A stretch of DNA of 54,721 bases from Oscillospiraceae bacterium (GTDB lineage: Bacteria > Bacillota > Clostridia > Oscillospirales > SIG530). Below the pieces are notes generated by a model. That model ran no database searches. It had not been told where the DNA came from and saw only the letters and a list, made by a program, of their open reading frames with translations. A program made the position numbers and the translations under genes. The DNA lies in NCBI GenBank assembly GCA_015067075.1, contig SVND01000009.1, positions 1 to 54,721 on the forward strand, written 5' to 3'. This document shows positions 1 to 53,921 of the stretch, piece by piece. The first letter of the stretch is position 1. Each line of letters starts with the position of its first letter.

Positions 1-1808
1 TCAGCGCAGTTTTCACATTTCTCACCGCATTCCGGACATACCGCAGCGCACTGTGCGCAACCATTTCCACAATCGCACACCATTCCAACGCAGTTTACAC
101 ATTCTCCGCATTCTTTACAAAACAGTTCTTCGCCTCCGACGCATCCAATACACAGTCCGCAGCCGCCGCAAAGCTCGTCGTCAGCGCAGTTTTCGCACAC
201 TTCACCGCATTCGGGACATATTGCGGCACAGTTGGAGCATCCGTTTCCGCAATAACATACCTGATCAACGCAGTTTTCACACTCGCCGCACTGGGCACAA
301 TATGCCCCCTCGCCGCCAACGCAATCCCAACAGATTCCACAGCTTCCGCAAAGCTGATCGTCAGCGCAGTTTTCGCATTTTTCGCCGCATTCGGGACATA
401 TTTCGGCACAATTGGAGCATCCGTTTCCGCAGTAGCACACCTGCTCAACGCATCTTTCACATTCACCGCATTGAGCACAGTATGCCCCTTCGCCTCCTAC
501 ACAGTCAAAGCAGATTCCACAGCTTCCGCAAAGCTGATCGTCAGCGCAGTTTTCGCATTTTTCGCCGCATTCGGGACATATTTCGGCACATTGTGAGCAA
601 CCCTGTCCGCAGGAGCAAATGTAATCTACGCAATTTTTACAGATGCCGCATTCCTCACAGTAGTTACCGTCGCCGCCAACGCAGTCCCAACAAATGTTGC
701 ATTCGCTGCAAAGCTGATCGTCAGCACAAGACTCGCATTTTTCACCGCAGTCGGGGCAGATCACGGCACAGTTCGAGCATCCGTTTCCACAGTAGCACAC
801 CTGCTCCACACAGTTTTCACATATGCTGCAGCTGTCGCAGAAACTGCCTTCCCCGCCCGCGCAGTTTTTACACGTTCCGCATTCAATACAGACCTCTCCG
901 TCGGCGCAGTTTTCGCATTTTTCACCGCATTCCGAACACACGTACGTGCACTCCGAACACCCTTGTCCGCAGTAACAGACTGCCTCAACGCAGTTCTCGC
1001 ATAGCTGGCACGTCTCGCAGAAGCTTCCCTCGCCACCCATGCAGTCTATACAGTACGAGCATTGGAGACACATCTTTTCGGGCTCGCAGTTGGTACACAC
1101 CTCATAGCAATCAGGACAGCCGAGGGCACATCGTGAGCATCCGTCACCGCAGTAGCAGATCCATTCGGCGCAGTTCAGGCAGATGTCGCAAACGGAACAG
1201 TATGCCTCGTTTCCTGCACAGTCGGGGCACTTGCCGCAGTCATCGCAGATCCATTCCGCACAGTCAACGCATTTTTCACCGCATTCGGAGCAGACGGCAT
1301 CGCCTACGTTGTAGCAGCCGCGGCACTTTTCGTCACACTCGCAGTGATCCTCAAGGCAGTTTCCGCAGTCGTCGCACATCTCGTTGTCTTCCTCGCACGC
1401 ACCGCAGTATCCGCAGTGGTGCTCTTCGTAGCAGTCACCGTCCGCGCCCTCGCCGCAGTGGTCGCCGTTCTCGCACTTCCAATCGTCGTAACGCCATCCG
1501 CCACAGTATTCGCACTCGACGCCGTCTTCATAATCGGCATATGCAGTGACAGATATTCCCGAAAGCAAAAAGTCAAGCACGCTCTCGCAAACAGACAGAA
1601 GATCAAACTGCGCCTGTTCTTCCTCGTGATTATGTTCATCTACGTAGATTTCTTCCTCAAAGCCGTGATCATCATGCTCCGTCTCAGTCTGCTCATGGCC
1701 GTGATCGTCCAGATGGATATGCTCATCGAACTTCATCCCGAAGGAGCTTCCGAAGATAAGCACCGCGCACATCAGTATGCTGATTATTCTTTCCAATTGT
1801 TTTTTCAT
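1..1808 (-). CDS. exported cysteine-rich 60-residue repeat protein (partial, C-terminus beyond left edge)
   Basis: The frame is open from the ATG at 1808 to the window edge, at least 602 residues, so the gene is cut. The start follows AGAGGT with 5 nt spacing. Residues 1-24 are a basic and hydrophobic export-like segment. Residues 27-64 are rich in His, Asp and Glu. Residues 68-91 form a second hydrophobic stretch ending in AYA, a possible cleavage site. Cysteine-rich sequence begins near residue 97. From about residue 240 it becomes a regular 60-residue repeat with roughly 16 Cys, mostly CxxC and CxC pairs (CPECGEKCENCAD, CYCGNGCSNC). The DNA repeats every 180 bp: related blocks begin at 1, 181, 361, 541, 721 and 901. 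It is the last visible gene of a same-strand cluster, 56 nt after the DUF4428-like gene. I recognise no family. Metal binding (zinc or Fe-S) or disulfide cross-linking outside the cell are inferences. Confidence 0.85.
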   Translation of the reverse strand, partial: MKKQLERIISILMCAVLIFGSSFGMKFDEHIHLDDHGHEQTETEHDDHGFEEEIYVDEHNHEEEQAQFDLLSVCESVLDFLLSGISVTAYADYEDGVECEYCGGWRYDDWKCENGDHCGEGADGDCYEEHHCGYCGACEEDNEMCDDCGNCLEDHCECDEKCRGCYNVGDAVCSECGEKCVDCAEWICDDCGKCPDCAGNEAYCSVCDICLNCAEWICYCGDGCSRCALGCPDCYEVCTNCEPEKMCLQCSYCIDCMGGEGSFCETCQLCENCVEAVCYCGQGCSECTYVCSECGEKCENCADGEVCIECGTCKNCAGGEGSFCDSCSICENCVEQVCYCGNGCSNCAVICPDCGEKCESCADDQLCSECNICWDCVGGDGNYCEECGICKNCVDYICSCGQGCSQCAEICPECGEKCENCADDQLCGSCGICFDCVGGEGAYCAQCGECERCVEQVCYCGNGCSNCAEICPECGEKCENCADDQLCGSCGICWDCVGGEGAYCAQCGECENCVDQVCYCGNGCSNCAAICPECGEVCENCADDELCGGCGLCIGCVGGEELFCKECGECVNCVGMVCDCGNGCAQCAAVCPECGEKCENCA

Positions 1809-1864
1809 ATTTTACCTCTTTCACAAAGATTATGCAAAATCATAAGTTTTCCATAATCTCCGTA

Positions 1865-2650
1865 TTACGGACGTGCACTTCCGCATTCCGTGCAAAATTT
1901 ACTTGTGTTTTCCGTACCGCAGCTGCATTTCCAGCTACCTGTGTTACTGCTTTCTTCCGTTTGAAGCTCAGCACTTTGCATCGGTACGGACTGTTTTTGC
2001 ATATTCATAACATATACATCAGGTCCCATCAGTACTGATTCTGACAGTTCGGGATGTATCCAGCTATTAATGATCGACACAAGCTCGTTCATCTTCATTT
2101 GCTGTTCAATAAACGTGTCGGAATTTCTGTCATCAGGTCTTTCGCCGTTATTGAGATCTACGCTGATCTCGTCAAACCACGGAGAGTCGATTTGGAAAGT
2201 AACGTGAAATTCATACGAATAGCTGTATCGAGGCGGATAATAGCTTTTTTCATTGCCTTCTTTATCCGTGAAAAAGATCTCCTCTTTGTTATCCTCAATG
2301 CTTTTTTCGCAGGAAATTATCTGTGAATAGTCTATAATATCAGGATTGTCTTCTCTGAAATTTCTTGCTCCCGTTACAACAAGCTTTTTTGCGTTCATAT
2401 CAAGATAAACCTTTTCATCTGTACCAAACACCATATTGGGATGAAACTGCTCCAGCTTCTTTGCATTTTCTTCCCTGTAAGCAAGCTGATCACGTATCTC
2501 CTGCACGGTGGAGCTTCGGCGCTCTCTGAAAAACGGAGAGAGCTTTCGCGCACAATCCTTACAAAGATTTCCGTCCTCAAGCTTACGGTTGCCGAGAAAT
2601 CCTATTTTTTCGCCGCAAATATCACAATATTTTTTATCAAACAGTCCCAT
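1865..2650 (-). CDS. DUF4428-like protein with N- and C-terminal zinc-ribbon motifs
   Basis: 261 aa. The start ATG follows AGGAGGATTACAT, a strong ribosome site. Residues 9-38 hold two CxxC pairs (CDICGEKIGF then LCKDCARKLS), matching the N-terminal zinc finger of DUF4428 proteins. The middle (about 60-210) is a mixed alpha/beta region resembling bacterial PH-like folds. The C-terminus has a second ribbon (CSCGTENTSKFCTECG). No signal peptide or membrane segment is seen, so it is probably cytoplasmic. It lies 18 nt after the DUF6935-like gene and 56 nt before the Cys-repeat gene, and is probably co-transcribed with both. The biochemical role is unknown; family assignment rests on the N-terminal motif and general layout. 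Confidence 0.8.
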   Translation of the reverse strand: MGLFDKKYCDICGEKIGFLGNRKLEDGNLCKDCARKLSPFFRERRSSTVQEIRDQLAYREENAKKLEQFHPNMVFGTDEKVYLDMNAKKLVVTGARNFREDNPDIIDYSQIISCEKSIEDNKEEIFFTDKEGNEKSYYPPRYSYSYEFHVTFQIDSPWFDEISVDLNNGERPDDRNSDTFIEQQMKMNELVSIINSWIHPELSESVLMGPDVYVMNMQKQSVPMQSAELQTEESSNTGSWKCSCGTENTSKFCTECGSARP

Positions 2651-3269: not shown

Positions 3270-3827
3270 TTATTTATTCAGTGATGTAAATAAATCAAAC
3301 AGCTTTTTAAGCATCGCACGCGGCAAAAAGTTGCTTTGGTTATTATACGCATAGATAGATTCTCCCGATGCATATCTGATATCCAGCAATGCGCCGTACA
3401 TATCGGGCAAACCGCTTACAGAATAGCTGTATCCGTTATGCTTTGCAAGGTTATATTCACAAGCTATTTGCTGTAGATTTTCCATAAATGCCGCATCCGC
3501 TTCAAATGAAAGGTCGTCGCCCTTTCCCGTGCGGTCGCGCCATCTGATATTGCAATCGACAGCTCCGCCATTTAAAACAGCCTTGCATTTATACAATCCG
3601 CATTCAAGCTCGCCCTCTTCTGCGTCGGCAAACAGAGAAAACGTACAGTTAAACTCTGTAATTTCGGTGGATTTTATCTCCTTCGGTGCATCATCACCGC
3701 TGTTATAGTGCCGAACTCCGCCATCCACATCGTCTGTTTCAGCACCTTTGCGACGCTTTTTTACGGCGAGCGCTACAGCCGATGCCGCGGCGCATACGAT
3801 TCCGATACCTAATATCAGCCATTTCAT
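3270..3827 (-). CDS. small membrane-anchored protein of unknown function
   Basis: 185 aa from the ATG at 3827, which follows TGAGGTGAAAAAT. An in-frame ATG at 3851 would add eight residues and also has a purine-rich leader, so the start is not fully certain. Residues 2-20 form one hydrophobic helix followed by KKRRKG, so the rest should be cytoplasmic if the positive-inside rule holds. The soluble part (about 25-185) has three cysteines and a mixed alpha/beta look, with no motif I recognise. It sits between the large surface-protein gene and the DUF6935-like gene, on the same strand with short gaps, which suggests a shared transcript. Confidence 0.7.
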   Translation of the reverse strand: MKWLILGIGIVCAAASAVALAVKKRRKGAETDDVDGGVRHYNSGDDAPKEIKSTEITEFNCTFSLFADAEEGELECGLYKCKAVLNGGAVDCNIRWRDRTGKGDDLSFEADAAFMENLQQIACEYNLAKHNGYSYSVSGLPDMYGALLDIRYASGESIYAYNNQSNFLPRAMLKKLFDLFTSLNK

Positions 3828-3883
3828 ATTTTTCACCTCAGCATATCTCACCTTTCATTTTTGATGAATATAGCTTTAAAGCC

Positions 3884-6871
3884 TTATTTTTTCTTTTTCT
3901 TCACCATTACAGCAACCGCCGCAGCTATACCGCCTATTACGATGACAGCCGCTACCGCCACGATGATCCAAACGACGCTGCCGCTCGGCTCATCATCCGC
4001 TGCTGGCTCGTCGCTCGGAGAATTGGGAGTAGGTGTGTCTTCAGATTTGGTTGGGGCAGGCGTTTCGTCTGTTTCCGCGGGCGTGGGCGTATTTACAGCT
4101 TCCGTAGGTGTCGGTGCCGCCTCCGTATCCGTGGGCGTTGGGTCTTCCGTTTCCGTAATCACTTCTCCGCTTCTATAGTTGCAAACGGTGCATCTGTTCT
4201 TCTCGCCGATTTCGTGTACGCCTTCCGTTCCTTCAATAATAATCTTACAGTTTTTGACCGTACATTCCTTCCAATGCTTTTCTCCGTCTGTTTTCCACTT
4301 GGACTCTTTATGACCTGTTGCGGGAATAACTATATCGTCCTCGGTTATTTCTTCCTTCGCCTTGTTATCAGCAAACAGCTTGCCGCATCCATCGCAGATA
4401 AAATGCTGTTTTTGACCCGCTTGCGTGCAGGTTTCAGCTATCTTCGCAACCTTTGTCAGCTTATGCTCATGGTCTTTTGCGGGAGCGATCATATAATTGC
4501 AAACGGTGCAGTTTTGGCTTGTTGTTTCCGTCGCTTCAGGGCCTGCCGTATGCTTTACAGCCTTGTCATGCTCGTCGCATCCCGCAACGGTGCAGGTATG
4601 AGCATGGCCCGAAGATGTAATATAGTCATATTCTTCGCTCCATTTATGCTCGCCCGTCTTTCCGTATTCAGTACTGCAAGCCTCGCATTTCGCCTTATTT
4701 TGGCAATCTGCCGTGCCGCCTGAATGAGCTACGATATCGTCGTGCTTTCCGCAAAGACTGCATTCGTGAGCGTGTCCTTTACTGTCCGTATAAGCCCAAT
4801 TTTCGCTCCACTTGTGCTCACCCTCCTCGCCGTATTCCATTTTACACTCAACGCATTTGGAAAACTTGCCGCATTCGGCTACGCCGCCCGTATGAGGCTG
4901 CAGTGTGTCAGGAGCATCGCAAGTTTTGCAAACGTGGGCATGGCCTATGGCATCCTTATAGTCCCAACCGCTTCCATAATTATGGGGAGCTTTAGCACCG
5001 TAAGGTGTGTCGCATCTTGAGCATCTTGCAAGCTCCGTGCAAGTCGCCTTGCCACCCGTATGGCCAAGCTTTTCGATCATGCCCCACGCATTGATATCGG
5101 AAATTTCCTTCGTGCACTTGGAGTCCTCAAAGTTTTTGCCGCACTCGGGGCAGAAGTAGTAAGCTTTCTTACCAACATCCTCGCAGGTTGCCTTGACCTC
5201 GTCAACCTTCAGCGGTAAGCATTTATGCTCCTCGGTTTTAGGGAAGGTGTAGTATAGCGTAACTTCTTCATTGTTTCTGGAGCTTACGTCAGCATTTTTG
5301 CCATTGACGGTACCGGCTACATTCACCGCACCGGATTTGTATTGGAATTCATAACCTTCATTTGTCCAGATCGTAACCTGAACGGTATAGGTCTTGCCAG
5401 CTTCAAACTTGTCGGAGGTGGACATGATTTTCTTATCGGTTTCATTGTACCAGGAAATACCGTTTTTCGTGGATTTATCATTATAATTCGCGGCACCATA
5501 ATTTACATTTGTATACGACGCGGTGTAGTCGGGCGACTGACCCGTAACGGGTGCATCGATGTCGGTAACACCAACATTACCAATGGCTACGCTTCCTGTA
5601 GCAGAGAATGCATATGTAACGAGTATTTCGTTCTTGTTTCCGGAGATAGTTGCGCTCTTGCCGTTAACAGTAGCAGTCATAGAAACGTTACCGTAAGAAT
5701 TGGTGGCAAATTCATACCCATGCTTTGCCTTTATGCGGATGTCCACCTGGTAAGCCTTACCAGGCAAGAATGCCTGCGTGCCGTCACAGAGGATATACGA
5801 GCTTCCCACCTCTGACCAGCAAACGCCGTTCTTGTAGTAGGCATCGTTTCTGCCGTTGTTCTCATATCCGGCACCACCGGTGAAGGTATAGTCGGGTGCT
5901 TTGCCCGCAACGGGTGCGTCGATGCCGCCAATCTCGATCTTGTTTATTTTAGCAGTTGTGTCACAGTCAAATACGCAGGATGCAACTACGTACATATTGG
6001 AATAGTTGTCGTACGTCGGAAGGACGGTCGCCGTCTTTCCGTTCATGGTCACCGTAACGGTGGGGAACGGCTTGCCGGGTTGTGCTAAAAAGTGATTTGC
6101 GTCGGTGGCAAAGCTTGCACCGTAGGCAGTGTTGAGCGTAAGCTTCAGTGCGTATTTCTTGCCGTATTCAAAGACTGCATTTCCCGCAAGGGGAGTGCCG
6201 TCCTGCAAAGTCCATTCAAACTTGTTAACGTTGACCCGACCGTCGTTCGCGTTTCCGTTTATAGCGTCAATGCTTATTCCCGAATCTTGCCATGTGATAG
6301 GAACGCGCTCGCCGGGGACAAGCGCAGGGACGCCGAACTCGATACTTTCGATGGGAGCCGCTTCAACCGTCGGAAAGGTATACATAACGGTCAAATATTT
6401 CTGATACGTGGTATCGTGCTCATACTTGGATGCGTCCACCGAGAAAAGGCTGTAATCCATCGTATTGTTTGCATTTGCAGCATTACCGTTTACGGTTACA
6501 GACGGAACCGCCGATACTCTTCCCTCTCCGGTCATGAAATAGTGATTGGGAGTTGCAACCTCAAGAACCACGTAAACCGTGTATTTTGTTCCTGCAGTTG
6601 CTGATTCAGAGGTGCTTGTTATGTAATTATTGCCATACTGCGACTTCCAGGCAACCTTGATGACGTTATATTTCTGAGAGTTCTCCTCTGCTGTAAAATC
6701 GAATTTTTTGCCTGCTGTGGGCGCATCGATTCCGGTAATGGTAACGTCATCGATCTGATATGTTGTAAACATCTCCTTCGCCGCAAACACCGATGTCGGC
6801 AGTACGCTGAGCATCATGATCATACAGAGCATCGCGGCAAATATGCGCTTAAAATTTGTAATCTTTTTCAT
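3884..6871 (-). CDS. large surface protein with beta-modules, CxxC modules and C-terminal membrane anchor
   Basis: 995 aa. The start is preceded by AAGGAGATATACACA. A signal peptide covers residues 1-30 (cleavage after SVFA). Four repeats of about 110-130 residues follow (near 40-170, 175-305, 310-425, 432-545). At least two carry IDAPVxGxxPDYT, a Trp, an AGKxYxVxV strand and a VNGxxA strand, suggesting beta-sandwich modules. Residues 550-880 hold repeated Cys/His modules with HTGGxAxC, CxxCxxxYG and GHAHxC, resembling zinc-knuckle-like repeats common in Firmicute surface proteins. A Thr/Pro/Glu-rich linker (about 890-950) leads to a hydrophobic segment and KKKKK at the end, so the chain is anchored in the membrane with no LPXTG seen. 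It lies 16 nt after the double zinc-ribbon gene. Ligand and role are unknown. Confidence 0.85.
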   Translation of the reverse strand: MKKITNFKRIFAAMLCMIMMLSVLPTSVFAAKEMFTTYQIDDVTITGIDAPTAGKKFDFTAEENSQKYNVIKVAWKSQYGNNYITSTSESATAGTKYTVYVVLEVATPNHYFMTGEGRVSAVPSVTVNGNAANANNTMDYSLFSVDASKYEHDTTYQKYLTVMYTFPTVEAAPIESIEFGVPALVPGERVPITWQDSGISIDAINGNANDGRVNVNKFEWTLQDGTPLAGNAVFEYGKKYALKLTLNTAYGASFATDANHFLAQPGKPFPTVTVTMNGKTATVLPTYDNYSNMYVVASCVFDCDTTAKINKIEIGGIDAPVAGKAPDYTFTGGAGYENNGRNDAYYKNGVCWSEVGSSYILCDGTQAFLPGKAYQVDIRIKAKHGYEFATNSYGNVSMTATVNGKSATISGNKNEILVTYAFSATGSVAIGNVGVTDIDAPVTGQSPDYTASYTNVNYGAANYNDKSTKNGISWYNETDKKIMSTSDKFEAGKTYTVQVTIWTNEGYEFQYKSGAVNVAGTVNGKNADVSSRNNEEVTLYYTFPKTEEHKCLPLKVDEVKATCEDVGKKAYYFCPECGKNFEDSKCTKEISDINAWGMIEKLGHTGGKATCTELARCSRCDTPYGAKAPHNYGSGWDYKDAIGHAHVCKTCDAPDTLQPHTGGVAECGKFSKCVECKMEYGEEGEHKWSENWAYTDSKGHAHECSLCGKHDDIVAHSGGTADCQNKAKCEACSTEYGKTGEHKWSEEYDYITSSGHAHTCTVAGCDEHDKAVKHTAGPEATETTSQNCTVCNYMIAPAKDHEHKLTKVAKIAETCTQAGQKQHFICDGCGKLFADNKAKEEITEDDIVIPATGHKESKWKTDGEKHWKECTVKNCKIIIEGTEGVHEIGEKNRCTVCNYRSGEVITETEDPTPTDTEAAPTPTEAVNTPTPAETDETPAPTKSEDTPTPNSPSDEPAADDEPSGSVVWIIVAVAAVIVIGGIAAAVAVMVKKKKK

Positions 6872-6887
6872 TGTGTATATCTCCTTA

Positions 6888-7181
6888 TTAATCAGTCATT
6901 TGTTCGCTTGGATGAAAAACGACCTTTTTTCCGCAATGGGGGCAATACTGCGCGTCCGCCGTCAACGACGTTTTACACTGTGGGCACTGGAAATGTAATT
7001 TTCTATAAAGGTCGAACAGTGTTTTCGTCGGCAGACGTTTTTTGCAAATGGGGCACAAAAAACTCCTTTTTCCCACAAGCCGACCGCATTCAGGACAGAC
7101 CTTCAGTTTTTTCATCATGTACGGACCCATGCCCAAAGCTTCGAGTCGGACGTATTTTTCACTTTTTGCAAGATCAATCAT
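6888..7181 (-). CDS. double zinc-ribbon small protein
   Basis: 97 aa from the ATG at 7181. This start is chosen over longer in-frame options because GGAGGTAGCTTTG lies directly upstream and the gene then overlaps the preceding stop codon by 8 nt (ATGATTGA), a usual sign of translational coupling. Two four-cysteine ribbons are visible: CPECG with CPICKKRL, then CPQCKTSL with CPHCGKKV. No membrane segment or signal is seen. Proteins like this often act as zinc-stabilised adaptors or nucleic-acid binders, but nothing here fixes a role. It is second in the minus-strand Cys-rich cluster. Confidence 0.75.
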   Translation of the reverse strand: MIDLAKSEKYVRLEALGMGPYMMKKLKVCPECGRLVGKRSFLCPICKKRLPTKTLFDLYRKLHFQCPQCKTSLTADAQYCPHCGKKVVFHPSEQMTD

Positions 7182-7542
7182 CAAAGCTACCTCCATAAAT
7201 AAGCTGTTTTCCGCACATTGGGCAGACAGCGTCACAGGCATTCACCTTTGCTCCGCAAAACTTACAGTAGCGCGGTGTGTTTTCCCACGGCGCGCAGGCA
7301 ACGCATTCCAGTGCATCAGCATTGAACAGCGCCTCCATTACCCACTTTCCGCACTTGTGGCACAAGTTGAAATTCTGTTTTCCTTCCCTTTCCCATGCAA
7401 GCTCCAGCTCACGCTCCGCAGTTTTCTCACGGTACGGCTCGGTCGTACACAGCAAAGCTCCTGACAACTCGCAGTAAAAGCTGTAGCGGTTTCCGCCCGA
7501 ATCCAAAATTATCTTGTACGTTGCAGTATTTTTTCTGTTCAC
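7174..7542 (-). CDS. zinc-ribbon domain protein, first gene of the Cys-rich cluster
   Basis: 122 aa using a GTG start at 7542, placed nine bases after GGAGGGAGG; an ATG at 7581 would add 13 residues but has no ribosome site. Residues 1-50 form a small beta-rich region (YKIILDSGGNRYSFYCELSG). Cys pairs follow: CHKCGKW, CVAC, CKFCGAK and CPMCGKQ. The stop overlaps the start of the next zinc-ribbon gene. It is the promoter-proximal gene of the cluster that ends in the Cys-repeat protein. It points away from the solute-binding-protein operon, sharing a short intergenic region with it. No clear minus-strand promoter was identified there. Function is unknown. Confidence 0.7.
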   Translation of the reverse strand: MNRKNTATYKIILDSGGNRYSFYCELSGALLCTTEPYREKTAERELELAWEREGKQNFNLCHKCGKWVMEALFNADALECVACAPWENTPRYCKFCGAKVNACDAVCPMCGKQLIYGGSFDD

Positions 7543-7632: not shown

Positions 7633-7892
7633 AATAAACGGGGTGGTCTCGAATCCGTTGGCGCGCGTTCCGAGACATGATGAGTTATCACCACGGGGTA
7701 CCCCAAACTTCTTTGTGTCGAAGACAGGACCTTATACCCTCCTTGAATTGCTCCTGCAATATATATTATATGGATTTTTAGGATTTTGTCCCCCACCCAA
7801 ACAGGCAAAAGGTGGGGAAAACATAAATTTTTTTATGTTTTTTGCTTCAAAATCTTCAAAACAAGGCTACAAATGCCGAGGAGGAACAAATT
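7633..7892 (+). promoter_or_regulatory. long structured 5' leader, possible attenuator or riboswitch of unknown class
   Basis: The leader contains GGTGGT pairing with ATCACC around an inner TCTCG/CGAGA stem (about 7652-7693), a GGGGTACCCC palindrome (7695-7704), and a CCCCACC/GGTGGGG hairpin (about 7791-7817). That last hairpin is followed by a T-rich stretch from 7829 and looks like a weak intrinsic terminator. A second AT-rich inverted repeat (AAAACATAAA with TTTATGTTTT) overlaps the T-run. I could not match it to a known riboswitch consensus. Pairing was judged by eye. Confidence 0.4.
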
Positions 7893-9245
7893 ATGAAAAA
7901 ATCCCGCACTCAAATTTTAACAAGGATCATTTTGCTTTTGCTTATCGTCATCAGCACTGTCTGCATGGCAAGCGGTTGCTCTAACAGCACTCTGCTCGAC
8001 CCTGATGACCCTGTCACACTCACCATATGGCACGTTTACGGTGAGCAGGCAAACGCACCGATGAATCTTCTTGTTGACGAGTTCAACGACACGGTCGGCA
8101 AGGAAAAAGGCATTCAGGTCATCGTCACCAACGTGACGGGTACATCAAAAATTCTTGCCCAGCTTTTAGATGCGCAAGCAGGAAAGCCCGGTGCGCTTGA
8201 GATGCCCGATCTTTTCTCCTGCCACACGCAAAACGCTCCGTCCTTGGGAGCTGACAATCTCGTTGACCTTGGACAATGGTTCACCGATAAAGAGCTGAAC
8301 AGCTATGTACCTGAATTTCTTGAAAGCGGTATGTTTGAAGGAAAGTTAGCTGTTTTTCCCGTATCAAAATCCACCTATGCGCTGTTTATCAACGGCTCGC
8401 AGTTCAAGCGTTTTTCCGCGGATACAGGTGTTACATATGAAAGCTTGTCCGATTGGAACGGATTTTTCGATGTTGCCGAAAAGTATTATAACTGGTCAAA
8501 CGGCAAGGCGTTTTGCGCCTTCGACTATCTGATCCGCCATCTGGAGCTTGACATTATCTCCCGTTACGGAAAGCTCGACTACACAGACAGCGGCTGGTAC
8601 GACGAGAATGACCCTGCTGTGAAGGAGTCCTTTACCATGTTTGCCGAGGCGTTTGCCAAGGGACATATTACCGTTTCTAATATGTACGCCAACACGCAGG
8701 TCATGACGGGCGAAGTTCCCTCAGGCATCGGCTCATCGGCGGCTATAGGATATTATAACGACACAGTCACCTACCCCGACAACACCTCTGAACCTACCGA
8801 TTTGCAGGTATTGCCCTTGCCGAAATCAGGCGGTGAGCATGAATATATGCCGCAGACCGGTGTCGGCATATGCGCATATAAAACAACTGAACAAAAGGCT
8901 GAAGCCGCTTATGAATTTATAAAATGGTTTACTGAGAGCGAACGTAATCTTGATTTTGTTGTTAAAACAGGATATATGCCTGTAACAAACAGAGCTTTCG
9001 CGGCAATCGACGGTTATGCGTTTGAGGATAAAGGCTATGAAAGCCTCTACAACGCAATCAAGACAATGCACGACGGTTATACGCCCATCGTCCGTCCCGA
9101 TTTTGACGGCTTTTATGACAAAACGAACGCGCTTTACGACTGGCTTCGCGAAAATCAACCTTCTTTGACTGAGCGCTATCAAAACGGCGAAGACATTTCC
9201 GTTTTAACAGAAGAAATGTGGAGCTTTTTCTGCGATATTGACTGA
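7893..9245 (+). CDS. extracellular solute-binding lipoprotein, sugar ABC type (family 1)
   Basis: 450 aa from the ATG at 7893, preceded by GAGGAGGAACAAATT; an upstream in-frame ATG lacks a ribosome site. The N-terminus has a lipoprotein signal with lipobox ASGC, so the mature protein should be tethered outside the membrane. The mature part starts with VTLTIWHVYGEQANAPM, typical of family 1 sugar-binding proteins, and has the late AAYEFIKWFTESE block found in this family. It is followed 13 nt later by a membrane LuxR-type regulator, and no permease or ATPase gene lies beside it. It may therefore serve signalling, transport through permeases encoded elsewhere, or both. The ligand is probably an oligosaccharide by family; none is proven. 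Confidence 0.9.
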   Translation: MKKSRTQILTRIILLLLIVISTVCMASGCSNSTLLDPDDPVTLTIWHVYGEQANAPMNLLVDEFNDTVGKEKGIQVIVTNVTGTSKILAQLLDAQAGKPGALEMPDLFSCHTQNAPSLGADNLVDLGQWFTDKELNSYVPEFLESGMFEGKLAVFPVSKSTYALFINGSQFKRFSADTGVTYESLSDWNGFFDVAEKYYNWSNGKAFCAFDYLIRHLELDIISRYGKLDYTDSGWYDENDPAVKESFTMFAEAFAKGHITVSNMYANTQVMTGEVPSGIGSSAAIGYYNDTVTYPDNTSEPTDLQVLPLPKSGGEHEYMPQTGVGICAYKTTEQKAEAAYEFIKWFTESERNLDFVVKTGYMPVTNRAFAAIDGYAFEDKGYESLYNAIKTMHDGYTPIVRPDFDGFYDKTNALYDWLRENQPSLTERYQNGEDISVLTEEMWSFFCDID

Positions 9246-9258
9246 TTGAGGTGGGAGT

Positions 9259-10983
9259 ATGGCAAAGATATCTGCCTTTAAGCATTCCGAATGGACGCTA
9301 AAGCGCAAGCTTTTCGTCTATATGCTCCTTTTAGCCGTCTTGCTCCTTTTTATCCTCGCATCATGTCTTATCCTGTTTGGACGGACAAATAACACAGCAG
9401 AAATATATTACGAGTCTTTGACGACACAAATGGAGATTTTCGAAAAGGATGTTTCATCCCATTTCGATCACCTTGCCGCATCTGCCATTTCTCTTTCAGA
9501 AAATATGACCTCGATTCTGGAGGACACTCTTTCCGAGCAAAACATATCTTTTTACCAATTGACCGATTCAAAGGACAGTATCGCCGCCTTGCAAAGCGCA
9601 ATGATCGAGCCTTTGCGGCAAAAGCTGCTTCAAACCAACTGTTCGGGCGCTTTCCTTATGCTAAACGCAACCGTCAACAGCTCCCTTGCTCAATCTGCCC
9701 ACTCAAAAACAGGGCTTTATCTTCAGACAAGCGGCTACCTTCACTCCGATTCCGAGGTGCTTTTGTACCGAGGAAATTCTGACATTGCCCTTGCAAAAGG
9801 TATTACGCCTCACCGCAAATGGCGATTGGAATTTCGCACAGACCTTTTTCCCGATTATGCAAAGCTTATCTCCGACGCCGCGCATCCGCTAAATACCGCT
9901 TACCGCATCACTTCACCCTTTACTCTGCCCGGTACGTCGGAGCAGGTGCTTTTATTGACGATTCCCATGCTCAGTAAGGACGGTACGTTTTACGGCATTT
10001 GCGGATATGAGATCAGCGCCAGCTACTTTATGACACATCACACTCAGCCGTCAAGGCTTGCTCACCTTAGCTGTCTTTTGGCAACTGCCCACGACAACGT
10101 CCTTATTTCAAAGCAGGCTATGTACTGCGGCGGAGCAGACGGATATTTCCATTCCTTGACCGAGGATTACGCCATACAAAAAGGCAATCACGGTTTCTCC
10201 GTTTTTACGGACGATATTTTCTCATACATCGGCGTTACAAAGAAAGTTTCCCTTTCGTCCGATGAAAGTCAGCAGCTATTGGTAACGATGATACCGAAAA
10301 CAGATTACGACCGTGCAAGGCTTAAAAGCTTTGCGCAGACCTGCGGACTTTTAGTTTTGCTTCTGTTTTTCACCGTAAGCTTTTGCCGTTTTTTCAGCAG
10401 ACGCTTCCTCTCCCCGATTTTAACCGCGCTTGAACAAATAAAATCAAATAAGCGAGCATCCTCGGACATTCCTGAGATACTCGACCTTATCGCATATCTC
10501 GACAAGCAGGAAAAGGAGCACGGAGAAGCACTTGATGCTCTTGAAAAAAAGCATCAAGTATCAGAAGCAGAAAAGCTTCGCTTACAGCAGGAATATGAAA
10601 GTGCATTGTCATCATTCCGCAAAACTGAACTGGAATACGAAAAAGCGCAGGAAGAGCTTTTACGCGTGCAAAAGAAGATCGAGCACTTGGCATATTCCAG
10701 AAAAGCCGAGATAGACCCTGCTGATTACGCATACTTTTTAAGCGGGCTTCAAACGCTGACAAAGGCAGAGAGAAATCTTTTCGAGCTTTACCTTGCAGGA
10801 AAAAGCGCCGCAGAGATCCTTGAACTTATGGGAATAAAGGAAAGCACGCTTAAATATCACAATCACAACCTTCTCGGAAAGCTCGGCGTTACCTCGCGCA
10901 AGCAAATGCTTCGCTACGCGGAGATCATGCGTCAGCAAAACGAGGACGAAAACAAACCTGCAAACCATAGCACCGTATTCTAA
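9259..10983 (+). CDS. membrane-spanning one-component regulator, extracellular sensor plus LuxR-type HTH
   Basis: 574 aa, starting after GAGGTGGGAGT. One membrane helix lies near residues 17-40 and a second near 360-380. They bracket about 320 extracellular residues that look like a Cache-type sensor region. A cytoplasmic coiled coil spans about 415-490. The C-terminus (about 500-560: LTKAERNLFELYLAGKSAAEI, then GIKESTLKYHNHNLLGKLGV) is a LuxR/GerE-type DNA-binding helix-turn-helix. No kinase or receiver domain is present, so the protein would read an outside signal and bind DNA itself. It lies 13 nt after the solute-binding lipoprotein and is probably co-translated; the lipoprotein could present a sugar to the sensor region. 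Target genes are not known. Confidence 0.85.
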   Translation: MAKISAFKHSEWTLKRKLFVYMLLLAVLLLFILASCLILFGRTNNTAEIYYESLTTQMEIFEKDVSSHFDHLAASAISLSENMTSILEDTLSEQNISFYQLTDSKDSIAALQSAMIEPLRQKLLQTNCSGAFLMLNATVNSSLAQSAHSKTGLYLQTSGYLHSDSEVLLYRGNSDIALAKGITPHRKWRLEFRTDLFPDYAKLISDAAHPLNTAYRITSPFTLPGTSEQVLLLTIPMLSKDGTFYGICGYEISASYFMTHHTQPSRLAHLSCLLATAHDNVLISKQAMYCGGADGYFHSLTEDYAIQKGNHGFSVFTDDIFSYIGVTKKVSLSSDESQQLLVTMIPKTDYDRARLKSFAQTCGLLVLLLFFTVSFCRFFSRRFLSPILTALEQIKSNKRASSDIPEILDLIAYLDKQEKEHGEALDALEKKHQVSEAEKLRLQQEYESALSSFRKTELEYEKAQEELLRVQKKIEHLAYSRKAEIDPADYAYFLSGLQTLTKAERNLFELYLAGKSAAEILELMGIKESTLKYHNHNLLGKLGVTSRKQMLRYAEIMRQQNEDENKPANHSTVF

Positions 10984-11011
10984 GATCAGTTTTTTCATGG
11001 TATAACAATAA

Positions 11012-11063
11012 TTTATAGCCAAAGCCTCCCTTGTGTATGCACAAGGGAGGCTTTGGCTATAAA
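11012..11063. repeat. perfect 24-bp inverted repeat with 4-nt loop
   Basis: Arms 11012-11035 and 11040-11063 pair without mismatch around TATG. The core is AAAGCCTCCCTTGTG and its complement. There is no T-run after it, so it is not a classic terminator, though it may stop or stabilise the upstream transcript. The core resembles the hairpin repeats at 12022 and 50891. Confidence 0.85.
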
Positions 11064-11082
11064 TGTTGCAAGCTTGTGGGCA

Positions 11083-11111
11083 TTGACTTTTGTATGCAGT
11101 GGTGATATAAT
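11083..11111 (+). promoter_or_regulatory. sigma-A promoter of the AAA ATPase gene
   Basis: TTGACT (11083-11088), a 17-bp spacer, TATAAT (11106-11111), 21 bp before the chosen start codon at 11133. Confidence 0.8.
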
Positions 11112-11132
11112 AAAAACGAAAGGATGCTTACT

Positions 11133-12002
11133 ATGGTTTATTTAAAAAGCTTTACTTTGCCTACGCGCGAAGCGGAAGAAAGCATAGTTACACCAAATGA
11201 ATACCCATTCGGTCTTTTTGCCTTCCGTGATATTGAGCCTCTTATCTTCAGCCCCATCACTATTCTCTATGGCTCAAACGGCTCAGGCAAGTCCACTTTG
11301 CTCAACCTTATCGGCGAAAAGCTTCGCCTTGCAAGGGAAACTCAATTTAACAAAAGCCGTCTTTTCGACACCTATGCCCATGATTTTTGCGATTATTCCC
11401 TTGCCTACGATGACGACGGCGTTATGATGAGCATTCCACAAGGCTCAAAGGTCATCACAAGCGACGATATTTTTTCATCTATTCTTTTTTCCCGCAGTAA
11501 AAACGAACGGCTTAACAATGAAAAGCAAGCCGCCGAGCGCGACTATATGCAAGCAAAATACAACCGTGTCGTCTTCCGCGATATGGACGACCTTGATAAG
11601 CTGAAGCTGCAAAACGAGGCGCGCAGTAAGTCCATGCGCCGTTTCACCGAGGAGCGTACTGAAAGCCTTATCCCTTTGCATTCCAACGGCGAGACCGTCA
11701 TTGAGTATTATAACAGAACGCTTGCGGAAAACCGTCTTTATCTGTTGGACGAGCCCGAAAACAGCCTTGCTCCATATTTTCAAAGGAAGCTTTGCGCGAT
11801 TATCGACGATATGGCGCGCTTTTGCGGTTGTCAGTTCATCATCGCCACTCATTCGCCCTTTTTCCTTTCCATGGAAAGCGCGCGGATATATGACCTTGAC
11901 AGCGTACCAGTTTGCGAAAAGTCATGGTATGAGCTTAAAAATATGCAGGAGTATTTTTCTTTGTTTTTTAATACACGAGAGGATTTTCTCAGAAAAATGT
12001 AA
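11133..12002 (+). CDS. AAA/ABC-type ATPase, monocistronic
   Basis: 289 aa from the ATG at 11133, eight bases after AAAGGA; the ATG at 11124 is too close to that site. Walker A is GSNGSGKS near residue 47, a signature-like SNGET sits before Walker B, YLLDEPENSL carries the Walker B acid, and IIATHSPFF supplies the switch His. The layout matches stand-alone ABC-type ATPases of the AAA_21 kind, which handle varied jobs including defence and DNA-related tasks; no membrane segment or partner gene is present. It has its own promoter and a terminator at 12139. The cellular role is open. Confidence 0.85.
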   Translation: MVYLKSFTLPTREAEESIVTPNEYPFGLFAFRDIEPLIFSPITILYGSNGSGKSTLLNLIGEKLRLARETQFNKSRLFDTYAHDFCDYSLAYDDDGVMMSIPQGSKVITSDDIFSSILFSRSKNERLNNEKQAAERDYMQAKYNRVVFRDMDDLDKLKLQNEARSKSMRRFTEERTESLIPLHSNGETVIEYYNRTLAENRLYLLDEPENSLAPYFQRKLCAIIDDMARFCGCQFIIATHSPFFLSMESARIYDLDSVPVCEKSWYELKNMQEYFSLFFNTREDFLRKM

Positions 12003-12021
12003 TAAAAGAGTCAATCATTGA

Positions 12022-12119
12022 AAAGGCTCTCCCTTTGGGAGAGCTCCCGACATAGTCGGGTGAGAGGGCGCCCTCTCCGTCACGCACACTACGTGACACC
12101 TCTCCCAAAGGGAGAGGCT
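12022..12119. repeat. head-to-head pair of palindromic hairpin repeats
   Basis: Two inverted arms (12022-12069 and 12070-12119) meet at the palindrome GAGAGGGCGCCCTCTC (12062-12077). Each arm itself has a CTCTCCCTTTGGGAGAG hairpin and a second small hairpin (CCCGACATAGTCGGG in one, GTCACG-type in the other). Related single copies lie at 50891 and 51027. They resemble the non-coding hairpin repeats scattered in gut Clostridia genomes. Confidence 0.8.
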
Positions 12120-12138
12120 CTCCCCACCGTAATACAAA

Positions 12139-12175
12139 AAAAGGAGCAAGTTTTCGCTTGCTTCTTTTAATTTTA
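12139..12175 (+). terminator. intrinsic terminator after the AAA ATPase gene
   Basis: AGGAGCAAG and CTTGCTTCT pair around TTTTCG, followed by TTTTAATTTTATT. The same stem, nearly identical, recurs at 12693. Confidence 0.75.
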
Positions 12176-12476
12176 TTCATCTGCATAAATCTTAAAAATG
12201 CTCTGATAATCATTATCCACGGTCAAGCACACGGCGGTGTTCGTCAACAAACAAATTTCCGCCGGCGGAGCCGTTTTTTCCTAATGTTTAACAAAACAGA
12301 GAAATTGATAGAAAACTCGCACAGCTAAAAATAAAATTATTATCGTTTTAATGGAAAGAGAGATATTAATAAAATTCATACAAAGCATTAAACGCATTAC
12401 ATAACCCTGAACCACAACATTCGACGGGAGCAAACAACTCTTTTTCATCTTCCACAGCTAAAAAGTATTATATAGC
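12176..12476. other. intergenic stretch without recognised features
   Basis: AT-rich sequence between the ATPase terminator and the dispersed repeat. No convincing open frame with a ribosome site was seen; the only local structure is a short CCGCCGGCGG palindrome near 12262. Confidence 0.5.
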
Positions 12477-12592
12477 AAAATGATGAAAAAGTCGCTTTGG
12501 AGGATGGGATACATAAGGGAAGGAGGAATCGAAACCTCCTTCCCTTATGCGCCTTCTTTTGTCCATTTCTTTGGCGCGAAAGAAATGGACAA
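12477..12592. repeat. dispersed non-coding repeat, copy A
   Basis: It begins AAATGATGAAAAAGTCG, contains a near-perfect hairpin (CATAAGGGAAGGAGG with CCTCCTTCCCTTATG), then CTTCTTTTG and a second hairpin (GTCCATTTCTTT with AAAGAAATGGAC). A diverged copy in the opposite orientation lies at 51129-51260. Confidence 0.75.
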
Positions 12593-12692
12593 TGTGTATG
12601 ATGAAATAGTAAGTGATAGTAAACAACTTCTATGTGAATGAGGCAAAATGCCTCCTCTACGAGCACACCGTGAAATTGTTCGCGTTGTATTA

Positions 12693-12722
12693 AAAAGGAG
12701 CAAGTTTTCGCTTGCTCCTTTT
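12693..12722 (-). terminator. terminator of the glmU-pth operon
   Basis: AAAAGGAGCAAG and CTTGCTCCTTTT pair around TTTTCG; on the minus strand the stem is followed by a T-run. It lies just after the pth stop codon. Confidence 0.85.
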
Positions 12723-12725
12723 ATA

Positions 12726-13391
12726 TTAATTAAATTTTTGCATAGCCGATTGTGCGTTGCCCTTTACTATTTCTGCTACGGCTTCGTTTATCTTCGGCAA
12801 AAGCTCCGAAATTGTTTTCATATCGCTTTCCGAAAACTTACCTAAGACCCAATCAGCTGTATCATACTCTGCAGGGCGCTTGCCCACACCTATTTTTATG
12901 CGAGGGAATTCATCACTTCCCATTTGTGCAATAATGGAACGAAGTCCCTTCTGTCCGCCGTCGCTTCCCTTTAGTCTTATGCGCATAACGCCAACGTCAA
13001 AGCTGATATCATCAGACAACACAAGTATCTTCTCAACGGGAATTTTATAAAACTGCGCCGCTTCCCTTACGGCATCGCCCGACAGGTTCATATACGTTTG
13101 CGGCTTCATCAAAAGCACGGGAACGCCCTCCAAAACGCCCACACCTGTCAGCGCCTTGGCTTTCAGCTTCGTTACCTTTACACCGTTTTTTTGCGCAATG
13201 TAATCGAGGGCAATAAAGCCTGCGTTATGGCGTGTTTTCTCATACTCCGCCCCGGGATTTCCAAGTCCGCAAATTATGTACTGCGGTACTGCAGAGCCTA
13301 CTCTCTTTTCCATCTGCGCCGCGCCCTCGGCTTTTTTCTTTGCAAGCCTGTTTTCCGTATGCTGCTGCTTCAGCTTTTCCCAAAGTTTCAT
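12726..13391 (-). CDS. pth: peptidyl-tRNA hydrolase with an N-terminal extension
   Basis: 221 aa. It releases peptides from tRNA after premature dissociation from the ribosome. The core begins at YIICGLGNPGAEYEKTRHNAGF, including the catalytic His region (TRHNAGF), then KPQTYMNLSG and the LSDDISFDVG block, all family hallmarks. The start overlaps the glmU stop by four bases (ATGA), so coupling is likely. The first ~35 residues form a basic, Lys- and Gln-rich extension absent from the usual 185-190-aa protein; an internal Met at residue 27 lacks a ribosome site. The terminator at 12693 closes the operon. Confidence 0.95.
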   Translation of the reverse strand: MKLWEKLKQQHTENRLAKKKAEGAAQMEKRVGSAVPQYIICGLGNPGAEYEKTRHNAGFIALDYIAQKNGVKVTKLKAKALTGVGVLEGVPVLLMKPQTYMNLSGDAVREAAQFYKIPVEKILVLSDDISFDVGVMRIRLKGSDGGQKGLRSIIAQMGSDEFPRIKIGVGKRPAEYDTADWVLGKFSESDMKTISELLPKINEAVAEIVKGNAQSAMQKFN

Positions 13392-14761
13392 TTCTTTATT
13401 TTACCTTCCGCCCAGCCAGCCTTATTTGTCTGACGGCTTCTTCCTATGGCAAGGGAGCCTTCAGGTACATCGTCCGTAACCGTCGTTCCCGCCGCAGTAT
13501 ACGCGCCGTCACCAACCGTTACGGGAGCAACGAGATTGGTATTGCATCCGATAAACGCATCGTTTCCGATGACCGTTCTGTGCTTTTTAAGCCCGTCGTA
13601 ATTGCAGGTAACCGTACCGCAACCGAAATTGACGTGCTCACCCACGTCGCTGTCGCCGATATACGTCAAATGGGAAACGCTTGTTCTCGCGCCGATGGTC
13701 GAGTTTTTGATCTCAACAAAATCGCCTATTTTTACATTTTCACCAATTACACTGTCAGGTCTGATATAAGCAAAAGGTCCTATCCTCGTGCCGTCACCCA
13801 CCTTTGCGCAGTATATCTGGGAGCTGTTGACCTTAACACCGTTTCCAACAACGCTGTCTTCGATATAAGCGTTAGGGCCGATTACGCAGTCCTCACCGAT
13901 AGTGACCTTACCTTTGATCACTGTGCCAGGTAAAATAAGCGTATCCCTGCCGATATTTGCATCGGGTGAAATTATTATTCCGCTTTCATCCATAACGGAA
14001 ACACCGTTATTCAAAACGCGCATTATCTCGCGCTTTGCCGCGCTCTTATTGAGCTGATGAAGCTGTACTCTGTCGTTTGCCGAAGCTGTTTCATCATTAT
14101 CGCCGATGGGGTAAGAATCCACGTTGTCGCCGCTTTGTGCAAGCACCATGGGAAGGTCTGTAAGGTAATACTCGTGTTGCGCATTATTGGGCGTTATCTT
14201 CGAAAGTCCAAACAACAATCTGTCCGCATCAGCCCAGTACATACCAACGTTTGATTCTTTAATGAGCTTTTGCTCCGCCGTGCAATCGCGCTCCTCGACT
14301 ATTTTTTCAAATTTTCCGTTGTTTTTGAAAATACGGCCATAGCCAAAGGGGTTGTCAAGAACAGCCGACAAAAGCGTGCAGGTGCATCCTGCTTCTTTAT
14401 GGGCGTTATACATACCTTCAATGGTATCCTTTGAAATGAACGGCGCATCGCCGTACATGATAAGCACGTCAGAGCCGCTATGCTTTTTTATAAACTCAGA
14501 CGCCGCCATTACTGCGTGACCTGTGCCAAGCTGTTCTGTTTGACGTGCATATTCAACGGTATCTCCGAAATAATCCTCAATATATTCAGCGCCGTGACCC
14601 GTTACGATGCAGATATCCTCAATTTCACAGCTTCTTACGGCATCAACCACCCACTGAACCATGGGCTTGAAAAGCACCTCGGCAAGTGCCTTCGGTTTTT
14701 TGGATTTTAATCTTTTTCCTGCTCCTGCCGCTAAAATAACGGCACAACAATTTGAAAGCAA
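13388..14761 (-). CDS. glmU: bifunctional GlcNAc-1-phosphate uridyltransferase / glucosamine-1-phosphate acetyltransferase
   Basis: 457 aa, full length for the family. It makes UDP-GlcNAc for peptidoglycan. The N-terminal pyrophosphorylase half has the nucleotide motif LAAGAGKRLKSKKPKAL (about 11-27) and MYGDAPF; the C-terminal half is a left-handed beta helix of hexapeptide repeats with the NFGCGTVTCNYDG acetyltransferase signature. The start is TTG, eight bases after GGAG. A minus-strand promoter lies at 14792-14820. It is co-transcribed with pth. Confidence 0.97.
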   Translation of the reverse strand: MLSNCCAVILAAGAGKRLKSKKPKALAEVLFKPMVQWVVDAVRSCEIEDICIVTGHGAEYIEDYFGDTVEYARQTEQLGTGHAVMAASEFIKKHSGSDVLIMYGDAPFISKDTIEGMYNAHKEAGCTCTLLSAVLDNPFGYGRIFKNNGKFEKIVEERDCTAEQKLIKESNVGMYWADADRLLFGLSKITPNNAQHEYYLTDLPMVLAQSGDNVDSYPIGDNDETASANDRVQLHQLNKSAAKREIMRVLNNGVSVMDESGIIISPDANIGRDTLILPGTVIKGKVTIGEDCVIGPNAYIEDSVVGNGVKVNSSQIYCAKVGDGTRIGPFAYIRPDSVIGENVKIGDFVEIKNSTIGARTSVSHLTYIGDSDVGEHVNFGCGTVTCNYDGLKKHRTVIGNDAFIGCNTNLVAPVTVGDGAYTAAGTTVTDDVPEGSLAIGRSRQTNKAGWAEGKIKK

Positions 14762-18191: not shown

Positions 18192-18953
18192 ATGAGGTCA
18201 GCTTTGTTTTCATATTTGCGTAAAGCTTCTTTTTTGCTTGCAATATCCGTTATGCTTTTATTCGTCTCATGTGCTGCTGCACCGACAACCACAATAACTC
18301 CGACGGTTACAAGTACACCGACGCCATCGCTGCCTCACGTTTCAACCTTTACAATAGAGCAACTACTGTTTGACGGAGAATATACGCAGGAAAAGATGGA
18401 TGAGCTTGTGCGAAGTATAATTTTAGCCACAGGTATTGTCGATAATTCTCCCTTTTATTTGTCATACCTGCAAAATGTGAGTTTTACGGATGACGGCAAA
18501 TTCATGCTCTTTCTCGATAAACACGGACAGGAGTATAAAAATGAAAGCGGATATACCGTGCCTGTCGAAGATGTGAGGGATTTCCTTTATTTTTCCCATA
18601 TTCAGCAGGTCGGATTCAGCAAAAGAATATATGAAAAAAACAATTTTAATCCTAAGGAGGTTTCCTTTGCACAGTATGACAGCGAAAACGACACCTTGTT
18701 TCTGTCTGCACTTCCCAAAACGAATATACAAGTAAGCGGCGCTCAATTTGAATACAGCTCAACGATTAAAAAGCCCATTGAGCGGTTGCTTTATATTAAA
18801 GGCGGAACGATGACGGATGTAAACGGTAATGAACACTTTCTCGACGGAGTTATACTGCTTGATTTTTGCACTATGCCCGATCTTTACAGAGAAAACGATG
18901 ATTATGTCGGACTTTTCTGGATAGACGGTATAAAATGGGGACCAAAAGCATAG
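18192..18953 (+). CDS. lipoprotein with Pro/Thr linker, paralogue 1 of 3
   Basis: 253 aa. A lipoprotein signal ends in the lipobox FVSC (Cys near residue 28), followed by a Thr/Pro-rich linker (TPTVTSTPTPS) and a globular domain. Conserved blocks shared with the two genes to the right are LLFDGEYTQEKMDELVRSI, SFTDDGKFMLFLDKHGQEYK, YTVPVEDVR, VSFAQYDSENDTL and LPKTNIQV. The domain is not one I recognise. It should be anchored outside the membrane. The ribosome site is weak (GGGCGG). The gene has its own consensus promoter and a two-way terminator at 18965. Confidence 0.8.
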   Translation: MRSALFSYLRKASFLLAISVMLLFVSCAAAPTTTITPTVTSTPTPSLPHVSTFTIEQLLFDGEYTQEKMDELVRSIILATGIVDNSPFYLSYLQNVSFTDDGKFMLFLDKHGQEYKNESGYTVPVEDVRDFLYFSHIQQVGFSKRIYEKNNFNPKEVSFAQYDSENDTLFLSALPKTNIQVSGAQFEYSSTIKKPIERLLYIKGGTMTDVNGNEHFLDGVILLDFCTMPDLYRENDDYVGLFWIDGIKWGPKA

Positions 18954-18964
18954 CAACATCAGAT

Positions 18965-19000
18965 AAAAACGGCGTATTCCGAAAAGAATACGCCGTTTTT
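18965..19000. terminator. bidirectional terminator between convergent lipoprotein genes
   Basis: A perfect 15-bp stem (18965-18979 with 18986-19000), core ACGGCGTATTC, with A- and T-runs at its two ends, so it works in both directions. Confidence 0.9.
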
Positions 19001-19020
19001 GCGGATAATCCCGTAAGATT

Positions 19021-19833
19021 TTAAACAACATGGGCGTCGCAACCGTCAAAGTAAAAATAACCGTCGTCGCTCAAAGCTCCACGCCAATAAATCTTTCCAT
19101 CCATTTCTTCAAACCCGTCTTGTTCCCATTTGTTTCCGTCAGCATCAATAAAGCCGCAGGTTATATAAAGGTTGGCATAATACGCCTTGTGTTCGTCAAG
19201 CTGCCATGGACAAAGAAGCTTGTCGTTAGTAACCTGTATGTTTGTTTTCGGAAGCTCGGTCAACGTCAAAGTGTCATTTTCGCTGTCATACTGCGCAAAA
19301 GTGACTTTTTCGGGATCAAAAGAGTTTTTTTCGGAAGACTCTTGAATATGAAGCTCTCGTAAAACAGCCCTGACATCCTTTACAGGAACGGTATATTTTC
19401 CGTCTTGCTTATACTCTGATGCGTGCTTATTCATAAATAGCTTGAATTTCCCGTCGTCGCTGAAATTTATACCGCTTTCCTTGACATACCAACCCCAAAA
19501 AGGATGCATATCAAGGCAATCTGTGGCAATAAAAATATTTCGTACTATTTCACTCAGCTTCTCCTCGGTAAACTCACCGTCAAACAGTAAGTCTTCCACC
19601 GATTCTCCGACGGCAGGCGTTGGATACGGTGTCGGTGTAAACGTCGGAGTCGGTGTACTTGTGGCTGTAGGAGTCGGCGCAAATGTTACTAACGGTGTCG
19701 GTGTACTTGTAACCGTCGGCTCAACTGTAGCTGTCGGTGTGGGAGCTGTAACAGCGGGTGTGCTGCCGCAGGAGGCGAGAGCAAGGATGAAAAAAGCCGA
19801 AATGATTGCGAGCAATAGGGTTTTCGGTTTCAT
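19021..19833 (-). CDS. lipoprotein with Pro/Thr linker, paralogue 2 of 3
   Basis: 270 aa, starting after AAGGAGGCACACGTTTA. The lipobox is LASC near residue 22, followed by a long linker with repeated PTPTAT/TSTPTP units (about residues 28-75) and then the same domain as its neighbours: DLLFDGEFTEEKLSEIVRNI, FSDDGKFKLFMNKHASEYK, YTVPVKDVR, VTFAQYDSENDTL, LPKTNIQV. Function is unknown; the protein should sit on the outer face of the membrane. It converges on paralogue 1 at the shared terminator. Confidence 0.8.
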   Translation of the reverse strand: MKPKTLLLAIISAFFILALASCGSTPAVTAPTPTATVEPTVTSTPTPLVTFAPTPTATSTPTPTFTPTPYPTPAVGESVEDLLFDGEFTEEKLSEIVRNIFIATDCLDMHPFWGWYVKESGINFSDDGKFKLFMNKHASEYKQDGKYTVPVKDVRAVLRELHIQESSEKNSFDPEKVTFAQYDSENDTLTLTELPKTNIQVTNDKLLCPWQLDEHKAYYANLYITCGFIDADGNKWEQDGFEEMDGKIYWRGALSDDGYFYFDGCDAHVV

Positions 19834-19866
19834 TAAACGTGTGCCTCCTTGTCAAAATTTAGTGTT

Positions 19867-20673: not shown

Positions 20674-20865
20674 CATTCCCTCCAACATTATAAAGCTTAA
20701 TAGCTTGAGATTGCGTGTTATTGTCAAGTAAGATTTCTATTGGCGCGGCACTATTGGGATCAGAAAATTATTGAAAGCGATATTCATCCCACGCACCGTT
20801 CGCAAATAAACAAACATTACTAAACCATTCGCTTTCGCACAAAAAAATTCGACGATTACAATTAT

Positions 20866-20894: not shown

Positions 20895-20990
20895 TATTTT
20901 CACACAAAAAGTCAAAAATTCCATACCAAAAAACGGCGCATTTGTGATATGCACCCCAAAAGTTAGACACATTTGGAGGTGCATATTTTT

Positions 20991-53918: not shown

Positions 53919-53921
53919 TTC

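Follow-up and report, generated by a model that had tools for sequence, protein, structure and literature searches.

The start of the window, the whole stretch of DNA analysed here (54,721 nucleotides of an Oscillospiraceae bacterium, contig C15 of its genome), raises the question of what an exported protein does with an extreme load of cysteine, and what chemistry holds such a protein together. Obligate anaerobes tend to keep cysteine out of exported proteins (PMC12453122), which makes this one surprising. An earlier note, made from the sequence alone, had described a Cys-rich repeat at positions 1 to 1080 and had suggested metal storage, electron carriage or a cross-linked wall as roles. Among the three, a metal-dependent structural protein appeared to fit best, whereas enzyme-made disulfides and Fe-S electron carriage were disfavoured.

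The repeat proved to be real, but the frame that carries it was longer than described. It lies on the minus strand and runs from an ATG at 1808 to base 3, over 602 amino acids, with zero stops; a stop codon, which the note had named as evidence against translation, was not found. The features of the gene, in window coordinates unless a contig is given, were as follows.

1815..1819, minus strand: Shine-Dalgarno-like AGAGG, 6 bases before the ATG, from the sequence
3..1808, minus strand: gene of the Cys-rich surface protein, N-terminal 602 aa; open frame at the contig end, dN/dS well below 1
1737..1808, minus strand: hydrophobic core of the signal peptide, residues 1-24, from the sequence; conserved in 12 homologues
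1611..1736, minus strand: His/Asp/Glu-rich insert, residues 25-66, in 11 of the 12 leaders compared, absent from that of locus L030
1536..1610, minus strand: second hydrophobic stretch with an A-x-A type motif, AYA (residues 89-91), at its end, directly before YEDG, from the leader comparison
1248..1535, minus strand: conserved N-terminal Cys module, residues 92-187 (YEDGVEC..C...CYEEHHC), from the homologue comparison
1071..1247, minus strand: divergent first repeat, residues 188-246, from the repeat profile
3..1070, minus strand: five complete 60-residue repeats (residues 247-546) followed by most of a further one (547-602), all built of four 4-Cys units
G000:C44:33506-36175, minus strand: C-terminal 889 aa of the Cys-rich protein; the frame is open where contig C44 ends

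The window start coincides with the contig end, and the rest of the gene was sought in the same genome. Outside C15, matches to the Cys-rich gene lay only at one end of contig C44: a frame of 889 aa there, open at the contig end, carried five further copies of the same repeat and the full C-terminus. Each piece is open precisely where its contig stops, and the genome contains one N-terminus and one C-terminus; the simplest reading is therefore a single gene whose repeats caused the assembly to break, and two separate genes seemed less likely on the same grounds. The joined protein would be no shorter than about 1,490 residues, a figure that does not count the gap between the two pieces. A candidate paralogue on contig C78, suggested by a BLAST match of the leader, was rejected: the matching DNA lies in a gene for a membrane protein, and the likeness is due to chance.

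Relatives numbered twelve, and every one came from a Clostridia genome. Nine related loci came from a scan of one genome per species, all of them Clostridia/Oscillospiraceae MAGs, and the source MAGs of the relatives include sheep, roe deer and water-buffalo colon or rectum. The family is rare: whole-genome searches were positive for 3 of 394 genomes at the order level (G126, G185 and the window's own genome), for 2 of 391 at the class level, where G746 was found, and for the own genome alone in a phylum sample of 398. Viral contigs, plasmid records and PHROGs yielded zero relatives. Relatives scored far above shuffled sequences in which every Cys was fixed and the rest permuted (391 bits versus at most 22 for L032, the most Cys-rich member, with 315 Cys in an open frame of 1,385 residues), so their kinship does not reflect mere cysteine content. 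Between species, dN was 0.18-0.31, while dS was 1.5-4.2 where computable and otherwise saturated. The frame is therefore not a chance one, and its identity as a real gene under strong purifying selection is well supported.

Export, as the earlier note had proposed, was borne out by a signal peptide in all complete homologues and by an [AVT]-x-A motif which, in all 12 homologues compared, directly precedes the start of the mature protein. The leader with its His/Asp/Glu-rich sequence and second hydrophobic stretch was likewise present, and conserved in 11 of the 12 homologues. The leader of L030 is an ordinary signal peptide that stops at this same position (SVFA before GYEDG), and for this reason the insert looks as if it had been spliced into a signal peptide; our guess is that it picks up metal during export. 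The N-terminal Cys module that follows showed 67-86% identity among orthologues and was still recognisable in L030 and L032. Its structure model was poor (pLDDT 38) and was left out of the fold search.

Tandem Repeats Finder returned the 180-bp period noticed previously (positions 1-821, 77% matches), and a repeat profile counted 7 copies in the window part. The same profile showed GGEGxYC and CPECGEKCENC, confirming the two conserved blocks that the note had given as GGEGAYC and CPECGEKCENC. A cysteine content of about 27% was right for the repeats (16 Cys per 60 residues, or 26.7%), the whole 602-aa part having 22.1% (133 Cys), versus a mean of 2.25% for the other ORFs of the window. This part was also strongly acidic, with 125 Asp+Glu versus 21 Lys+Arg. 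Each repeat consisted of four 4-Cys units of 13-17 residues, spaced C-x2-C-x2-C-x2-C in units 1 and 2, C-x-C-x3-C-x2-C in unit 3, and C-x2-C-x3-C-x2-C in unit 4. Toward the C-terminus, the units turned into a plain 14-residue repeat (for example, CEDCGKCSGCMDEF and CPDCGICIDCADAM).

The cysteines were nearly immovable. The window genome and nine related loci supplied 86 full repeats, in which 14 of the 16 Cys sites never varied and each of the remaining two was retained in 83. Genuine swaps were few and of two kinds only: three repeats had His in place of C27, and in L012, L017 and L032 C34 was replaced by Asn, accompanied by a new Asp two residues further along; apparent losses of C32 were rejected as misaligned C-terminal units. 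All three C27 cases sit in a similar repeat, and may thus represent a single event. Repeats with one Cys swapped kept the other 15. Non-Cys positions were variable, repeat number differed among relatives, and indels fell mostly in the linkers between units.

Searches of Pfam, NCBIfam and the PDB gave zero family matches to the protein, which matched zero Pfam families at E ≤ 1. The family is thus undescribed in the databases searched, in line with the first impression that no known family has this repeat. DUF326 (PF03860), the family of the copper storage proteins (Csp), matched 15 of 55 repeat triplets weakly (best E 0.014), none of them the window's own triplet; no match exceeded the curated Pfam cut-off, and the weak ones look like an effect of composition. 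The AlphaFold model of three repeats was almost helix-free (pLDDT 79, pTM 0.48; two of the five models were poor). Its best PDB fold matches were mostly PHD, RING, FYVE-like and LIM domains, all with E values of 1.6 or worse, and VIA-align gave one weak row (PHF1, Z 2.3 over 36 residues). The likeness of this model to zinc fingers is only suggestive.

Most relatives, as well as the C44 part, ended in a hydrophobic segment followed by a Lys tail. In L016, the C-terminus consisted instead of SLH repeats (PF00395, E 2e-19), and in L032 of a type I dockerin (PF00404, E 5e-7). Exchangeable anchors of the SLH and dockerin type imply display on the cell surface or on a cohesin scaffold, and the interchange of membrane segment, SLH repeats and dockerin leaves surface display of the protein well supported by sequence.

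Taken together, we propose, with about even confidence, a surface rod or coat of 4-Cys mini-modules that would be folded and stiffened by bound metal, most likely zinc. The replacement of Cys by His, or by Asn with a new Asp, suits an exchange of metal ligands and not disulfides. Each unit would provide two pairs of thiols, and one zinc would be bound jointly by the final pair of a unit and the opening pair of the unit after it; we infer this sharing from the spacing, the near-invariance of the cysteines, the two kinds of swap and the absence of the disulfide enzymes searched for. The load would come to about four zincs per 60 residues, or tens per molecule. Export, which the sequence supports, would be of the Sec type, through a leader whose His/Asp-rich insert may load the metal, and the C-terminus, as membrane segment, SLH repeats or dockerin, would tether the rod to the cell surface or a cohesin scaffold. 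By analogy with the variant-specific surface proteins (VSPs) of Giardia, the metal-stapled rod could resist gut proteases and serve as a protective or spacing layer.

The coats that VSPs form are rich in CXXC; chelators or reductants abolish their resistance to proteases, and metal brings it back (PMC6341118). VSPs also bind zinc and carry a CxxCxxxCxxC motif (PMC2996952), which is the same as unit 4 of the repeat. They resemble the present protein in being exported, Cys-rich and full of CXXC, in their C-terminal membrane anchor and gut habitat and, for some, in tandem repeats. They differ in that the bacterial protein has a strict 60-residue, 16-Cys repeat, a bacterial leader with a His-rich insert and exchangeable anchors, and in that one gene copy in the genome here stands against a large switching repertoire there. 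PF03302, the VSP family, did not match the protein at E ≤ 1 and was found in 0 of 55 repeat triplets at E ≤ 10, a search in which most matches above 0.1 were filtered out. The protein would thus work like a VSP by analogy, not by homology. We tentatively advance a wider possibility: that anaerobic Clostridia of the gut possess their own, hitherto undescribed equivalent of the CXXC-rich coats of protozoa, a protease-resistant surface layer of metal-bridged 4-Cys modules, loaded during export by a His/Asp-rich segment within the signal peptide and fixed to the cell by exchangeable anchors. If true, intestinal protozoan coats would have a bacterial parallel, and metal thiolates could stand in for disulfides as extracellular staples in anaerobes. 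Members of the family place 130 to more than 300 Cys outside the cell, here from a genome that has no recognisable disulfide enzymes of the families searched, and the repeat could represent a ready-made, tunable metal-binding polymer.

Other metal-binding systems were compared as well. Zinc fingers of the LIM, PHD, RING and FYVE-like types share closely spaced CxxC pairs with the repeat, and in LIM domains a (C/H)xxCxxCxxC centre is split between two zincs. However, these domains are cytoplasmic or nuclear and hold 2 Zn in 50-60 residues, whereas the repeat would need about 4 Zn per 60 residues outside the cell; none matched it significantly in sequence or fold. The Csp proteins and metallothioneins are Cys-rich with a high metal capacity. 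Csp proteins are four-helix bundles with CxxxC on the helices, unlike the almost helix-free repeat model (its pTM being only 0.48), and metallothioneins are short and have no 60-residue repeats, signal peptide or anchor.

An extracellular metallothionein-like sponge for Zn, Cu or Ni, which would feed uptake or protect from excess, is the alternative that survives best, although we judge it unlikely. According to this reading, the His-rich leader and acidic repeats provide capacity, not stiffness, which agrees with the His/Asp-rich insert in 11 of 12 leaders and with the very large number of thiols available (133 Cys in the window part and as many as 315 in L032). An oligopeptide-type ABC importer at 8597-13745 of L030 (minus strand), about 7 kb from the Cys-rich gene, also speaks for it, its His-rich subunit tails (HTHTHIHDHEHG...) suggesting metal or metallophore uptake. 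However, the other loci had no conserved adjoining metal transporter or metal regulator, and exact Cys spacing, conserved linkers and the N-terminal module point to a defined fold.

A cross-linked wall protein, as the note had suggested, here taken as one whose cysteines pair extracellularly in a dense mesh of disulfides within and between molecules, appears improbable. The even number of Cys per repeat (16) would allow it, VSPs may combine metal and disulfides (PMC6341118), and uncatalysed disulfides or other thiol oxidants are possible. Nevertheless, a search of the 96% complete genome for the DsbA, VKOR and Thioredoxin_4 families found none of the three, while the positive controls matched. 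The habitat is reducing, and single Cys were lost without loss of a partner, leaving 15 in the repeat. Because these enzymes were absent, because obligate anaerobes tend to avoid exported Cys, and because lone cysteines gave way to His or Asn/Asp, the main staple is probably something other than disulfides.

The metal may merely keep a passive spacer folded while a working part binds host mucus, plant fibre or other cells, a ligand-binding or adhesive stalk that we rate as no less improbable than the disulfide wall. The working part could be the variable repeat surface or the HTHxY/CxxC and List_Bact_rpt-like modules of the C-terminus. Variable non-Cys positions and repeat numbers, the dockerin of L032 and a weak List_Bact_rpt match in the C-terminus are in keeping with this, but no carbohydrate-binding or adhesin domain was recognised, and the stalk overlaps with the metal-stapled rod without excluding it.

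Fe-S clusters are assembled in the cytoplasm and exported by Tat, and CxxCxxC resembles a ferredoxin motif. An Fe-S or redox wire, in which regularly spaced CxxCxxCxxC units hold clusters or relay electrons across the envelope as dithiols, is nevertheless very improbable, given the Sec-type leader and the absence of Fe-S families from the Pfam and NCBIfam matches, of CxxxCP from the repeat consensus and of conserved redox genes nearby, and the electron-carrying role put forward earlier is disfavoured with it.

The metal-stapled rod was also considered in its genomic context. The Cys-rich gene is the last one seen in a series of genes on one strand, which extends from about 7581 to 3; upstream of it, the series contains the following genes.

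1865..2650, minus strand: DUF4428 and zinc-ribbon protein; adjoins the family also in L010 and L017
2669..3250, minus strand: DUF6935 protein, conserved in 6 related loci
3270..3851, minus strand: small protein with an N-terminal hydrophobic segment, conserved in 5 related loci
3884..6871, minus strand: 995-aa surface protein with CxxC pairs, a C-terminal membrane segment and a Lys tail
6888..7241, minus strand: double zinc-ribbon protein, conserved in L011 and L014

Several of these conserved neighbours carry zinc ribbons. The 995-aa protein adjoins the family also in L011, L013, L014, L015 and L031, and more weakly in L032; the rod might perhaps act with it, under cell-envelope control. In L010, L012 and L017, the genes directly upstream were YdjI-like (SPFH and zinc-ribbon), YdjG-like (zinc-ribbon membrane) and YdjH-like (TPM), as named by domain content and gene order. 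YdjG, YdjH and YdjI of B. subtilis tie PspA to the membrane in envelope stress (PMC8581546). The pspA-ydjGHI operon thus has the gene types found in these three loci, but it has no counterpart of the Cys-rich protein, and in the window genome the YdjG/H/I-like trio is located on another contig, C84.

Several other observations were made along these contigs. At 1493-3721 of L030 (minus strand), beside the G746 homologue, a second Cys-rich exported protein (11% Cys) combined repeated Ig/CarboxypepD_reg-like modules with a C-terminal dockerin. A pair formed by an extracellular solute-binding protein and a LuxR-type membrane regulator, divergent from the Cys-rich cluster, was present both in the window (7842-10983) and in L030 (5565-8533), with 60% and 44% identity, the two genomes being distant; in L032, a 7TM-LuxR regulator adjoins the Cys-rich homologue. 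Directly downstream of the C-terminal Cys-rich part in L005, two similar proteins of 567-568 aa in tandem (9899-13450) look like right-handed beta-helix enzymes.

An ORF of 292 aa with 14% Cys at 53844-54719 (plus strand) was rejected as a gene, since it is antisense to an SLH protein. That protein (53922-54719, minus strand) and its very similar neighbour (51694-53625, minus strand), the latter with CBM_4_9 modules, are adjacent, and this contig end is probably also a repeat break. Elsewhere in the window, three paralogous lipoprotein-like genes (18192-20727; 253-286 aa) with Thr/Pro linkers adjoin an IS3-like transposase pair at 20973-22216.
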